Positions 60,137-62,166 of a stretch of DNA of 64,000 bases are shown here, one piece after another (the first letter of the stretch is position 1; the number at the start of each line of letters is the position of its first letter). Source of the stretch: Actinomadura physcomitrii. Lineage in GTDB: Bacteria > Actinomycetota > Actinomycetes > Streptosporangiales > Streptosporangiaceae. The DNA is taken from contig NZ_WBMS02000004.1 in assembly GCF_008923205.2 (NCBI RefSeq), forward strand, positions 1 to 64,000, in the 5' to 3' direction. The notes under the pieces are model-generated. The model had not been told where the DNA came from, did not search any database, and worked only from the letters and a program-made list of their open reading frames with translations. A program made the translations under genes and the position numbers.

Positions 60137-60159
60137 CTTAGGGAAGGTACCTGCATAAG
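60137..60159. promoter_or_regulatory. Imperfect palindrome before the ROK gene
   Basis: CTTA...AGGTACCT...TAAG is centred on GGTACC (60145-60150) and begins 11 bases upstream of the start codon, overlapping the expected promoter. Confidence 0.5.
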
Positions 60160-60253
60160 TGGGCCGGACGGCGCCCACGATACCCCGGACCGGCGGCGCG
60201 GCCCCCTCAGCCGCCCGAGCCGAGCCCGGCGGCGGCCATTTCCGATGCCAAGC

Positions 60254-60274
60254 GGCCGGCAATATCTGCCGGCC
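60254..60274 (-). terminator. Terminator after the tRNA array
   Basis: GGCCGGCA and TGCCGGCC form a perfect 8-bp stem with loop AATAT, 33 bases downstream of tRNA-His on the minus strand. Confidence 0.65.
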
Positions 60275-60307
60275 ACCGCCCGACCAATCCTGCTATTTCC
60301 TATTAAG

Positions 60308-60381
60308 GGCGACCGCCCGGGATCGAACCGAGGACCTCCAGGACCACAACCTGGCGTGCAGACCACCACACCACGGACGCC
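60308..60381 (-). tRNA. tRNA-His (GTG), divergent
   Basis: 74 bases. Anticodon arm CCAGG-TTGTGGT-CCTGG gives anticodon GTG. The 5' extra G pairs with C73, the hallmark of tRNA-His. T arm CTCGG-TTCGATC-CCGGG is normal. Oddities: a T4-T69 mismatch in the acceptor stem and G at position 14 where A is nearly universal. CCA is not encoded. It starts 1 base after tRNA-Arg. Confidence 0.8.
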
Positions 60382-60382
60382 G

Positions 60383-60455
60383 TGTCTCCGACAGGACTCG
60401 AACCTGTGCCCTCCGGGTCCGCAACCCGGCGCGCTCTCCACTGCGCCACGGAGAC
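60383..60455 (-). tRNA. tRNA-Arg (GCG anticodon)
   Basis: 73 bases with a complete cloverleaf: acceptor GTCTCCG/CGGAGAC, D stem GCGC/GCGC, anticodon arm CCGGG-TTGCGGA-CCCGG, T arm ACAGG-TTCGAGT-CCTGT, discriminator A. The anticodon GCG reads CGC/CGU. Bacteria normally use an inosine-modified ACG tRNA for these codons, so a GCG isoacceptor is unusual. Confidence 0.85.
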
Positions 60456-60476
60456 TCGATATTCGGTTGCCGTGCG

Positions 60477-60549
60477 TACTGGGCGCAGGAATCGAACCTG
60501 CCTGATGCGGGATATGAATCCGCCGGATGCACCAGCATCCCTGCCCAGC
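60477..60549 (-). tRNA. tRNA-Met-like (CAT), divergent
   Basis: 73 bases. Acceptor GCTGGGC/GCCCAGT (one wobble), anticodon loop TTCATAT with CAT, T arm GCAGG-TTCGATT-CCTGC, discriminator A. Position 8 is A and 14 is G, so the normal U8-A14 contact is missing, and the last pair of the anticodon stem is A-C. It lacks the features of an initiator tRNA. Could also act as tRNA-Ile2 if its C34 is modified. Confidence 0.7.
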
Positions 60550-60554
60550 CTGCG

Positions 60555-60639
60555 CGGAGGGTGCGAGATTCGAACTCGCGCAGGGTGACCCCTGACGACG
60601 GCTTAGCAAGCCGCTGCCTTTCCGCTCGGCCAACCCTCC
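60555..60639 (-). tRNA. tRNA-Ser (GCT)
   Basis: 85 bases with long variable arm. Acceptor GGAGGGT/ACCCTCC, D stem GCC/GGC, anticodon arm GCGGC-TTGCTAA-GCCGT giving GCT, T arm GCGAG-TTCGAAT-CTCGC, discriminator G as needed for seryl-tRNA synthetase. Reads AGC/AGU. First tRNA of the array, 15 bases after the end of the terminator U-tract. Confidence 0.9.
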
Positions 60640-60654
60640 GGGAAACGTTCGGGG

Positions 60655-60687
60655 AAAGAAAAGACCGCCCGTTCTGCTCGGGCGGTC
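60655..60687 (-). terminator. Intrinsic terminator (attenuator) in front of the tRNA array
   Basis: On the minus strand GACCGCCCG-AGCAGAA-CGGGCGGTC (60687-60663) is a perfect 9-bp stem followed by TTTTCTTT (60662-60655). This is a full rho-independent terminator, rare in this GC-rich window, and sits between the leader ORF and the first tRNA. Confidence 0.85.
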
Positions 60688-60692
60688 GGCGT

Positions 60693-60715
60693 CAGGACGC
60701 GACGGTCACGTCCTG
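60693..60715 (-). promoter_or_regulatory. Hairpin enclosing the leader stop codon
   Basis: CAGGACG and CGTCCTG pair (7 bp) around a loop that holds the TGA stop of the leader ORF. A ribosome finishing the leader would melt this hairpin; one stalled earlier would let it form, a layout typical of ribosome-mediated attenuation. Confidence 0.65.
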
Positions 60716-60768
60716 CGGCGGCTCCCGAGGCCGGAGTGGCTGCTGCGGTGCATTCGGTGATGGCGCAT
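60706..60768 (-). CDS. 20-residue leader peptide rich in Arg, His, Ser and Met
   Basis: The ORF begins at ATG 60768, 8 bases after the strong ribosome-binding sequence AAGGAG. It encodes MRHHRMHRSSHSGLGSRRRT: six Arg, four His, four Ser and two Met, i.e. 16 of 20 residues. Codons are mainly CGC (Arg), CAC/CAT (His), AGC (Ser) and ATG, those read by the tRNA-Arg(GCG), tRNA-His(GTG), tRNA-Ser(GCT) and tRNA-Met(CAT) encoded just downstream. A stop-codon hairpin and an intrinsic terminator follow. It is best explained as a sensing leader for tRNA shortage. No homologue is recalled. Confidence 0.7.
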   Translation of the reverse strand: MRHHRMHRSSHSGLGSRRRT

Positions 60769-60806
60769 CGTTCCCTCTCCTTCCGGCCTCGTTCCGTTCA
60801 ACGCCC

Positions 60807-60835
60807 ATACTGTCCAAGCGATTCCGCTGCGGCAA
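60807..60835 (-). promoter_or_regulatory. Promoter of the leader/tRNA array
   Basis: Minus strand -35 TTGCCG (60835-60830), 17-base spacer, -10 CAGTAT (60812-60807). The predicted start near 60800 gives a 5' leader of about 32 bases to the ORF. Confidence 0.55.
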
Positions 60836-60847
60836 CCCATTATTTCC

Positions 60848-60876
60848 GGGGCGGCCCGCCCGGTGCGGGCCGCCCC
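60848..60876 (-). terminator. Terminator after the SDR fragment
   Basis: GGGGCGGCCCGC and GCGGGCCGCCCC form a perfect 12-bp stem with loop CCGGT, 8 bases beyond the stop of the SDR remnant. It insulates the tRNA-array promoter from upstream transcription. Confidence 0.75.
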
Positions 60877-60883
60877 GATTTCC

Positions 60884-60997
60884 CTACTCGTCGAAATCGG
60901 TGCTGCGGATCAGCGGCTCCCAGGCGGCGAACTCCTTGCGGAGGCCGTCCAGGCTCGCGGCGACCGCGTCGGCGGCGTCGCCGCCGAGCGGCAGCCG
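60884..60997 (-). pseudogene. C-terminal fragment of a short-chain dehydrogenase
   Basis: About 35 codons end the minus-strand frame: LPLGGDAADAVAASLDGLR then FAAWEPLIRSTDFDE, the usual C terminus of actinobacterial SDR oxidoreductases. The reading frame upstream is antisense noise, because the sequence switches to an SDR N terminus on the other strand. Confidence 0.65.
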
Positions 60998-61183: not shown

Positions 61184-61854
61184 CTGTCCGCCAGGCCGAG
61201 CGGGTGGCCGCAGCAGCGGAGCGGCACCGGCGCGCCAAGACCGGAGTGCTGCGCGTCGGGTTCGAGGCGAGCGGCGCCGGGGAGCTGACGACGCGGGCGC
61301 GCGCCGAGTTCGCCCGCACCCATCCCGGCGTCCGGGTCGAGCCGAAGCGGTTCGACTGGGGCGGCGAGGCCGACGCGCTGCGGTCCGGTGACGTGGACGT
61401 GGCGTTCGTATGGCTGCCCGCCGACCTGTCCGGCCTGCACGCCGAGATCGTCCACACCGAGCCGCGGATCGTCGGGCTGCCGGCCGGGCACCGGCTCGCC
61501 GGGAACGCCTCAGTCGGCATCCTCGACGTCGGCGACGAGCCGCTGATGTGGACGGAGCGGGCCCCGCGCGAGTGGGTGGACTGGTGGGCGGTCAACCCTC
61601 GCCCGGACGGGTCGGAGCCGCGGTGGGGGCCGACCAACGACAACGTCGAGGAGATGCTCGAGCAGGTCGCCGAGGGCGTCGCGATCTGCTTCGCGCCGTC
61701 CAGCATGGCGCTGTACTACACGCGGCCCGGCATGGTGTGGGTGCCGCTCACCGGCGTCGAGCCGCTGCGGGTCGCGCTCGCCTGGGCGGACGGCGCGGAC
61801 GGCCCGCTGGTGCGGTCGTTCGCGCGGATCGTCCGCGGCCTGGTCACCGGGTGA
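61184..61854 (+). pseudogene. LysR-type regulator, C-terminal effector domain only
   Basis: About 223 codons match a LysR substrate-binding domain: GVLRVGFEASGAGELTTRARAEFARTHPGVRVEPKRFDWGGE, DVAFVWLPADLSGLHAEIVHTEPRIVGLPAGHRLAG, TNDNVEEMLEQVAEGVAICFAPSSMALYYTRPG. The N-terminal helix-turn-helix is absent and replaced by SDR sequence in another frame; no good start exists. Overlaps the convergent sigma-like gene by 11 bases. Confidence 0.75.
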
Positions 61855-62092
61855 CGGGAGCGCCCAGGGTCGCGTGCAGCGCGCGCAGCGCCTGGTAGAC
61901 GCGGACCTTGACCACGTCGACCGGCACCCCCAGCAGGGCGGCGGCCTCGTTGACCGAGCGCTCCCGGAAGACCGTCTCGGTGAGGATCTCGCGGTGCGCC
62001 GACGGCAGCGCCTGGAAGGCCCGGGCGACCGCCGCGGAGCGCGTCCGCTCCCCCGGTGCGCCGGGGGCGAACGAACCGGTGTGCTTGCCCAT
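61844..62092 (-). CDS. Stand-alone sigma-70 region 4-like protein
   Basis: 82 residues from ATG 62092. Only sigma region 4 is present: ARAFQALPSAHREILTETVFRERSVNEAAALLGVPVDVVKVRVYQALRAL, a typical ECF HTH. Region 2 (core and -10 binding) is absent and is not found upstream. It may be a decayed ECF sigma factor or a small regulator that pairs with a separate region 2 protein. Confidence 0.7.
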   Translation of the reverse strand: MGKHTGSFAPGAPGERTRSAAVARAFQALPSAHREILTETVFRERSVNEAAALLGVPVDVVKVRVYQALRALHATLGAPVTR

Positions 62093-62166
62093 TCGCAGTG
62101 CCACGCAACGAACTTGGCACCACACCGCCCGCCCGGCGCCTCCCTTATGCCGCCTTTAAGGAAGAG

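Follow-up and report, generated by a model that had tools for sequence, protein, structure and literature searches.

The window considered here, the whole 64,000-nucleotide stretch of Actinomadura physcomitrii DNA that was analysed (contig NZ_WBMS02000004.1, positions 1 to 64,000; host genome of 10.0 Mb), carries on its minus strand an operon of four extra tRNA genes, preceded by a short leader peptide written largely in the codons that these tRNAs read. The best explanation, with a probability of about 0.85, is that the operon is opened by ribosome-mediated attenuation when a shortage of one of these tRNAs makes ribosomes stall. Comparison of related loci has established the leader, the terminator and the tRNA genes, a leader whose codons change with the tRNA set except in the case of Arg, compensatory changes in three helices predicted to compete with one another, and a promoter box of the WhiB7/WblC type. 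On this comparison of sequences attenuation is well supported, and it is likely that the system is a self-matched backup against tRNA loss.

The leader and its operon

Twelve of the 19 non-start leader codons are exactly readable by the four downstream anticodons, or 13 of 20 when the start ATG is counted, which is the count given in the initial annotation of this DNA. The readable share expected from the codon usage of three window coding sequences (1073 codons) is 8.7% per codon, giving a binomial p of 5e-9. Nine of the first 11 non-start codons match the downstream tRNAs, and the sensor codons for the four tRNAs are intermixed along the leader. The arrangement goes beyond chance because the same kind of leader open reading frame (ORF) is found in orthologues from other genomes of the genus. 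The features are given below in the order of the operon, 5' to 3' on the minus strand.

60839..60845, minus strand: AT-rich box AAATAAT of WhiB7/WblC type, 3 nt 5' of the -35, with placement and motif as in the available text of PMC7157823 and PMC10727445
60807..60835, minus strand: promoter-like site, -35 TTGCCG (60835-60830), 17 nt, -10 CAGTAT (60812-60807), assigned by eye; orthologous leaders have a similar upstream layout
60783..60790, minus strand: RNA strand 1, GAGGCCGG, predicted partner of strand 2 in an 8-pair helix (anti-antiterminator)
60777..60782, minus strand: Shine-Dalgarno sequence AAGGAG, from the sequence and its Shine-Dalgarno score
60706..60768, minus strand: leader ORF MRHHRMHRSSHSGLGSRRRT, 20 codons, ATG at 60768, stop TGA, with similar ORFs in orthologues
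60736..60768, minus strand: sensor part of the leader, codons 1-11, entirely 5' of strand 2, with Arg, His, Met and Ser codons (from codon positions in 46 aligned loci)
60724..60734, minus strand: RNA strand 2, CCGGCCTCGGG, with strand 1 and strand 3 as alternative partners (from helix covariation)
60695..60713, minus strand: hairpin of 7 pairs enclosing the leader stop codon, 96.5% of alignment cells paired
60673..60682, minus strand: RNA strand 3, the apical half of the terminator 5' arm plus loop, forming with strand 2 the putative antiterminator (9 pairs)
60655..60687, minus strand: intrinsic terminator GACCGCCCG-loop-CGGGCGGTC (60687-60663) plus TTTTCTTT, from the terminator scan and the paired cells of the alignment
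60554..60639, minus strand: extra tRNA-Ser(GCT), called by ARAGORN
60476..60549, minus strand: extra tRNA-Met(CAT), called by ARAGORN
60382..60455, minus strand: extra tRNA-Arg(GCG), called by ARAGORN
60307..60380, minus strand: extra tRNA-His(GTG), called by ARAGORN

The initial annotation had described a 20-codon ORF with an AAGGAG site, a hairpin around its stop codon, an intrinsic terminator with a U-tract before the tRNAs and the same four anticodons, and all of these were recovered: the ORF at 60768-60706, the hairpin in the alignment, the terminator in the terminator scan and the tRNAs by ARAGORN at 60307-60639. It had also described a promoter; the site TTGCCG-17-CAGTAT is seen by eye, but a sigma-70 promoter scan of the window locus gave nothing that reaches threshold. 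A second terminator that it placed 3' of tRNA-His was not borne out, as the terminator at 60687-60655 is the sole terminator-like site that the scan finds in 60150-60950, and by eye there is a hairpin without a U-tract at 60274-60254.

Three of the four tRNAs pass the Rfam tRNA cut-off in the window scan and tRNA-Met passes in the genome scan (33.5 bits). No T-box riboswitch was matched by Rfam in the window, tRNA giving the only matches at the gathering score. The locus is not a mycobacterial tRNA array unit, which has a high number and density of tRNA genes; only four are present here. Three marks of a ribosome-mediated attenuator are found instead: a short ORF with a ribosome-binding site between the putative promoter and the regulated genes, leader codons tied to the function of the operon (Arg excepted), and a terminator with a mutually exclusive antiterminator that is predicted from covariation in 46 sequences, within the limits noted below for the helices.

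Leader codons follow the tRNA set

The window locus is matched at E<=1e-15 in 60 of 65 genus genomes and at E<=1e-9 in 67 of 298 sampled family genomes, 35 of the 67 being from its own genus; the same operon is present in records of Actinomadura rudentiformis and A. hibisca. Loci were grouped into families by tRNA set: SMRH (the window type), LLY (Leu-Leu-Tyr), DCR (Asp/Cys/Arg, including CR and DR) and Ser-only. An LLY operon is matched at E<=1e-9 in 64 of 65 genus genomes, and a Cys-Arg operon query matches all 65, many of its matches being ordinary Arg tRNAs. A contig search with the LLY start region gave 49 stretches; of 12 opened, six from Actinomadura and one from Thermomonospora hold LLY operons, and the matches in three Kribbella, one Micromonospora and one Mycobacterium stretch proved on opening not to be LLY operons.

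Individual loci illustrate how the leader changes with the tRNAs. Locus L100 has tRNAs for Ser and Arg only, and its leader MRRSSSALSGLGSSRRS has no His codon and no internal Met codon. His is absent from both the tRNA set and the leader of L026, and L029 and L097 have neither tRNA-Met nor an internal ATG, although L094 has retained the ATG in the absence of tRNA-Met. Arrays of Met and Arg tRNAs alone (L144 and L241) follow the leaders MRLRRRMNMPRWARM and MRIRRRMTMPGWARM. Leaders of Asp-Cys-Arg loci contain both Asp and Cys codons, and those of the Asp-Arg loci L222-L224 contain Asp codons without Cys codons. The second tRNA of L121 has the anticodon GAT instead of the CAT of its relative L119, and its leader contains two ATC codons and lacks an internal ATG.

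The presence of tRNAs and codons was tabulated for 170 loci. The counts below are for loci with tRNA and codon, tRNA only, codon only and neither, and the p-values ignore relatedness.

Met in SMRH loci: 71, 1, 3, 5 (p 1.4e-5)
His in SMRH loci: 67, 0, 6, 8 (p 9e-8)
Ser AGY in SMRH loci: 65, 0, 7, 9 (p 4e-8)
Cys in DCR loci: 23, 0, 1, 7 (p 3e-6)
Asp in DCR loci: 11, 0, 7, 13 (p 4e-4)
Tyr across all four families: 46, 0, 3, 121

The association holds in one direction: where a tRNA is present its codon is hardly ever missing, and codons do at times occur in the absence of their tRNA. Left out of the table were the SMRH-type loci L034, L099, L136, L138, L139, L140, L143, L147, L245 and L246 (incomplete, of other array types or repeats), the duplicates L073 and L074 and the LLY locus L269; L082, whose tRNA-Met has an insertion, was excluded from the SMRH Met count. 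tRNA-Met was scored by hand as present in 14 loci where ARAGORN had missed or miscalled it (13 were read, and L247 was scored by its likeness to L248), and L240 had no tRNA called. Leaders were chosen mechanically, by best Shine-Dalgarno sequence, length and distance, so a few are possibly wrong and that of L233 looks unrelated. Nine of 40 DCR-type loci have no leader ORF that passes the rule, including L238, which was elsewhere seen with a leader containing Cys and Asp codons.

Among the DCR loci, L230, L232, L234, L235 and L237 have a lone Arg(CCG) tRNA or Asp and Arg(CCG) tRNAs and no leader by the rule, and L233 has only the unrelated ORF. A box-like site is still present in L230, L233 and L235, which suggests loss of the attenuator. 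Relaxed ARAGORN places a tRNA-Tyr at a distance of 870 nt from the Leu-Leu array in L263 and of 1129 nt in L266 (genomes G027 and G018, respectively), and Tyr codons are absent from the leader of that array. Insertions of one kind, beginning CATCTGGTTGGCCAGGGCT, are present in the T-arm region of two different tRNAs from two genomes, tRNA-Arg of L016 and tRNA-Met of L082.

Relatedness was weighed on trees built from the LLY or the SMRH loci themselves, with 300 label shuffles; the SMRH tree is circular for SMRH characters. Two of three His tRNA changes share a branch with a codon change (0/300 shuffles on both trees). Four of five Cys tRNA changes are shared, again with 0/300 shuffles on both trees, and two of these are deep branches whose direction depends on the rooting. 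For Met the shared changes are 2/5 on the LLY tree (5/300 shuffles) and 1/3 on the SMRH tree (40/300). Cases from other genera (L121, L129, the Met-Arg arrays and the arrays of genera g73 and g20) add events that were not placed on a tree.

Is it the amino acid or the tRNA that the leader reports? Ser codons wholly 5' of strand 2 are AGC or AGT in 96 of 96 cases in the 46 aligned SMRH loci, and this points to sensing of the tRNA rather than the amino acid. For comparison, the share of AGY among Ser codons is 16/51 in window coding sequences and 12/140 in leaders of the LLY type, whose operons lack a Ser tRNA; it is 193/246 in whole SMRH leaders and 30/60 in Ser-only leaders (p 0.055). In a cross-family codon matrix, SMRH leaders (49% on their own set) and LLY leaders (22%) separate from other small sets. 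The leader-tRNA covariation that the initial annotation proposed as a test is borne out at the level of anticodon and isoacceptor; it failed for Arg, and for Asp once relatedness was weighed.

Other lineages have comparable loci. Genus g73, which belongs to the family of the window, has arrays of 11-12 called tRNAs after the leaders MNTALWHLSQRMRYELRAVLAETSG, MNTERWLTSQRYELHSVLLMGASG and MNTAHWQMSQGTRYELLHVLLRGSSG, and the first of these leaders has exact codons for 10 of 11 array tRNAs within 24 codons (simulation 8e-4); no such leader was seen in L143, a fourth g73 locus. A lone tRNA-Ser(GCT) is found in 10 of 394 class genomes outside the family of the window, all ten from genus g20 of another family. 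Nine of these ten have a short Ser-rich leader ORF, for example MTDTSSSRSSSPSSSLQGGAP, and no short ORF was found near the tRNA in the tenth, L353. Four of the nine leaders also hold Met and His codons without such tRNAs.

The predicted RNA switch

An alternative antiterminator, a point raised by the initial annotation, was found in an alignment of 46 leaders (nine of 55 candidates, L019, L020, L028, L086, L087, L089, L093, L098 and L100, were left out); it covaries across the 46 but is shorter in the window, where pairing of strands 2 and 3 is limited to CUCGGG/CCCGAG, than in relatives. The helix of strands 1 and 2 (helix 1:2) has 8 pairs with 88.6% of cells paired and 11 cells changed on both sides, a number reached in 2/500 shuffles. 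The helix of strands 2 and 3 (helix 2:3) joins leader GGUCUCGGG with the terminator apex CCCGNAGACC in 9 pairs, with 89.5% of cells paired and 14 cells changed on both sides (0/500 shuffles as high). The stop-codon hairpin and terminator jointly have 97.3% of cells paired. Related sequences can beat shuffles without any structure, so controls with slid partners matter: when partners are slid by 1-3 columns, pairing drops to 18.5-60.3% for helix 1:2 and 36.8-55.3% for helix 2:3. In 31/46 loci (1:2) and 30/46 (2:3), the strands of a locus pair better with each other than swapped strands do on average, and in L013 and L084 all three strands change together, from GACC/GGUC/GACC to GAUC/GAUC/GAUC.

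Of the non-start codons in the 46 loci, 301 of the 484 that start before strand 2 are cognate, compared with 85 of the 365 that start within strand 2 or later. Single-sequence free-energy folding with the 5' part removed was done for 12 loci, and several of those listed, such as L007, L029, L119 and L131, give antiterminator-like folds at early stall positions. RNAalifold on the same alignment gives other outer pairs (columns 16-20 with 175-179), strand 1 pairing with the terminator 3' arm, as a possible further alternative. For the LLY operons, an acceptor-stem decoy (leader GAGCCGC copying the tRNA-Leu 3' strand) was considered and rejected; it is present in close relatives and gone from most diverged LLY loci.

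The promoter box and WhiB7

WblC-activated promoters of Streptomyces coelicolor have GAAAWY 3 bp 5' of a TKGMNN -35, and six tRNA genes are directly regulated by WblC, according to the available text of PMC7157823. The mycobacterial WhiB7 motif is described in the available text of PMC10727445 as an AT-rich run 3 nt from the -35 (see also PMC3905903). A box scoring at least 5/6 lies upstream of the leaders in 42/81 SMRH, 27/31 DCR, 21/49 LLY and 3/9 Ser-only loci, compared with 1.5, 0.2, 0.4 and 0.1 expected from base shuffles, and at 0/39 other tRNA loci checked in the genome of the window (expected 0.5). At 4/6 the counts are 74/81, 29/31, 39/49 and 3/9, versus 3/39 for the other tRNA loci. 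Boxes of relatives score up to 6/6 against GAAAWY; the window box at the likely -35 scores 4/6 by eye, and the best hit of the scan there is a different TTGG site.

A WhiB protein with a C-terminal RGRPR (AT-hook) is encoded in the same genome (contig C40, 61806-61946), with an A-rich run before TTGATT upstream of its gene. Two marks of a WhiB7/WblC regulon, an AT-rich box 3 bp from the -35 and a WhiB7 protein in the genome, are present.

Sister operons and divergent tRNAs

The initial annotation covered the window operon only, and neither the promoter box nor two sister operons elsewhere in the genome were part of it. These operons have other tRNA sets and other leaders that match them. One, on contig C23 (L151), has Leu(CAG), Leu(GAG) and Tyr(GTA) after the leader MAMQRLRLRLPSASHARPGRYPLS, and the other, on contig C62 (L162), has Cys(GCA) and Arg(CCG) after the leader MTCRPGGRARTCSRSTRRAAP, which is followed by a terminator-like GGCCGCC/GGCGGCC-TTTCC (by eye).

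The extra tRNAs are divergent. Compared with the same-codon tRNA among loci fetched from the genome, identities are 0.61-0.79 for the 8 of 9 that are comparable, Arg-GCG being set against an ACG tRNA and Leu-CAG having no counterpart among the fetched loci. In the window operon, tRNA-Ser(GCT) has an identity of 0.67 to the other tRNA-Ser(GCT) found, tRNA-Met(CAT) 0.69 and 0.64 to two other CAT tRNAs, tRNA-Arg(GCG) 0.61 to tRNA-Arg(ACG), the other CGC-reading tRNA seen in the genome, and tRNA-His(GTG) 0.63 to the other tRNA-His found. With a length of about 75 nt, both extra Leu tRNAs of L151, Leu(CAG) and Leu(GAG), lack a long variable arm, a feature that is usual for bacterial tRNA-Leu; the observation also concerns the LLY operons L170-L199.

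A fourth small array in the genome, Trp-Ala-Ser(CGA) at C33:27462-27745 (L152), has no leader ORF that could be found, and the same is true of L037 and L038. An AAAT-N3-TTGC box lies about 60 nt 5' of its tRNA-Trp, a pattern not found in L037 and L038, and the array may be WhiB7-driven but not attenuated. Two further loci (L153 and L154, at C41:49429 and C33:115308) have tRNA-Cys calls with the unusual anticodon ACA and identical sequence, and their 300-nt upstream flanks are also alike by eye. In the window, the minus-strand ORF 61844-62125 ends in VDVVKVRVYQALRALHATLGAPVTR, which by eye resembles the C-terminus of an extracytoplasmic function (ECF) sigma factor. Similar ORF ends adjoin the leader promoter upstream in several relatives, such as L004, L012 and L014; in the window the ORF is about 1 kb away.

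Proposed mechanism

Translation stress would raise WhiB7 and thereby increase initiation at the putative leader promoter. Normally the ribosome would clear the leader, strand 2 would return to strand 1 and the terminator would halt the polymerase before the tRNAs. Should a main tRNA be absent or lack its amino acid, a ribosome would stall at the corresponding codon between strands 1 and 2 and hold them apart; strand 2 would be free to pair with strand 3 at the terminator apex, which would let the polymerase read through. The divergent extra tRNAs would restore decoding in place of those lost. Since the sensor codons of the four tRNAs are interleaved, any single shortage would open the whole set, as in an OR gate.

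In nature the set is probably triggered when cleaving toxins deplete tRNAs or when translation is under severe stress. Hungry codons could come from a tRNA-cleaving toxin, an antibiotic or starvation, cleavage being one source among several. In Mycobacterium abscessus, VapC5 cuts tRNA-Ser(CGA), ribosomes stall at UCG and whiB7 rises strongly, according to the available text of PMC10287673. Cleavage of this type is the kind of event that may feed both the promoter and the leader layers. It is tempting, although still a tentative idea, to see in this a modular, immune-like system against tRNA loss in actinomycetes: several WhiB7-armed operons of nuclease-evading replacement tRNAs with self-listing leaders, in which a cleaved isoacceptor would release its own replacement.

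Points against and alternative explanations

Several results weigh against attenuation by tRNA-specific stalling. Codons persist in loci that lack the tRNA (His 6/14, Ser 7/16, Met 3/8, Asp 7/20, Cys 1/8). On the operon trees only His and Cys exceed all 300 shuffles, and Asp is not significant, with 1/4 shared changes (91/300 shuffles) or none; independent events within the genus are therefore few. Arg codons do not follow the Arg tRNA (mean 3.26 with it and 2.64 without), CGY is not enriched over other Arg codons and CGA is frequent (47/111); conserved CGA might report the main inosine tRNA. In the codon matrix, CR, DR and Ser-only leaders are not separated, their scores on the SMRH set being as high or nearly so.

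The structural evidence has its own limits. Counted by pairs with double changes, helix 1:2 (203/500) and helix 2:3 (76/500) do not exceed the shuffles, although by cells and by score they do. A Ser codon lies at least 12 nt before strand 2 in only 24/46 loci; in many it is 7-10 nt away, so a stalled ribosome may cover the first bases of strand 2. Single-sequence folds keep the terminator at all listed stall positions in several loci, including that of the window and, for example, L001, L002, L005 and L011; as these folds are mixed, the analysis relies on covariation. LLY operons show no clear U-tract terminator and their switch may therefore differ. The attenuation reading of the initial annotation is nevertheless supported by the codon covariation, within its limits for Arg and Asp, and by the covarying antiterminator.

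Four other explanations have been weighed, with odds that are not exclusive of the attenuation reading. The one that survives best, although it is unlikely, is a general antibiotic or translation-stress operon driven by WhiB7, in which any stall in the leader opens the terminator and codon identity is minor. It shares its promoter layer with the tRNA-specific attenuator and would explain the boxes at the leader promoters; the six tRNA genes of the S. coelicolor WblC regulon (PMC7157823) and the attenuator that whiB7 has in its own upstream ORF (uORF; PMC10727445), both as given in the available text, agree with it. However, the identity of the leader codons shifts with the tRNA set.

A considerably less probable explanation is an amino-acid starvation attenuator, with a leader that responds when Ser, Met, Arg or His runs short and tRNAs that are bystanders or serve to scavenge scarce amino acids. 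In Streptomyces lividans, such leaders are found ahead of amino-acid genes and of aminoacyl-tRNA synthetase genes (available text of PMC8079986), and in the loci studied here the Arg codons show no isoacceptor preference. The Ser codons before strand 2 are all AGY, however, which starvation sensing does not need, and the anticodon change in L121 is mirrored by the leader codon. A lack of amino acid would presumably not be relieved by extra tRNA genes, and one leader here serves four unrelated amino acids.

The remaining two explanations have little in their favour. Decaying arrays from mobile elements without regulation would account for divergent tRNAs and for the truncated tRNAs or missing leaders seen in some loci, but loci matched in 60/65 and 64/65 genus genomes and conserved regulatory helices make this very improbable. 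Least probable of all is a coincidence of GC-rich sequence rich in Arg, His and Ser, with an untranslated ORF and only the hairpins of importance, for although Arg codons are common anyway without covariation, and RNA pairing can account for the codons in strand 2 and beyond, the binomial p, the presence/absence tables, the concentration of matches 5' of strand 2 and the occurrence within a single genome of distinct leaders for distinct tRNA sets speak against it.

Relation to known systems

Leader-peptide attenuation is classic and is known for biosynthetic, synthetase and resistance genes. In the trp and his operons it works by a logic of 1:2, 2:3 and 3:4 helices; the proposed window system has the same logic and differs in its target and its multi-codon sensor.

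The closest systems are described in four sources, to the extent of their available text. The whiB7/wblC uORF attenuator (PMC10727445) is likewise an actinobacterial short ORF with a rho-independent terminator that responds to translation stress, its antiterminator being formed on stalling from uORF and terminator; its target, however, is a transcription factor gene, and no match to tRNAs of its own operon is described in that text. The alaS, thrS, trpS and leuS leaders of S. lividans (PMC8079986) use codons of the amino acid concerned, several have a terminator, and their synthetase targets also restore charged tRNA. They differ in having one amino acid and a protein-coding target, whereas the leaders here have several isoacceptors and tRNA genes as targets. 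The S. coelicolor WblC regulon (PMC7157823) shares direct control of six tRNA genes and the box 3 bp 5' of the -35, but leader peptides or codon matching are not mentioned in the text available. In the VapC5 case of M. abscessus (PMC10287673), the loss of a single tRNA leaves ribosomes stalled at the corresponding codon and induces whiB7; no replacement tRNA operon is described there.

A literature search found no leader peptide matched to the tRNA genes that it precedes, a provisional result as preprints and most subscription papers were outside its scope; with the same proviso it agrees with the initial annotation, which knew of no leader coding for the very tRNA set that it controls.

What the system would mean

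The controlled product in this system is the decoder itself, in the form of several isoacceptors together, and individual leader codons shift with the anticodons encoded downstream. If the proposal is true, bacteria are able to sense that a single tRNA isoacceptor has been lost. This would provide a reason for large actinomycete genomes retaining divergent duplicate tRNAs, past attacks on particular tRNAs could be recognised from the leaders, and the WhiB7 stress response would in part be linked to specific tRNA damage.

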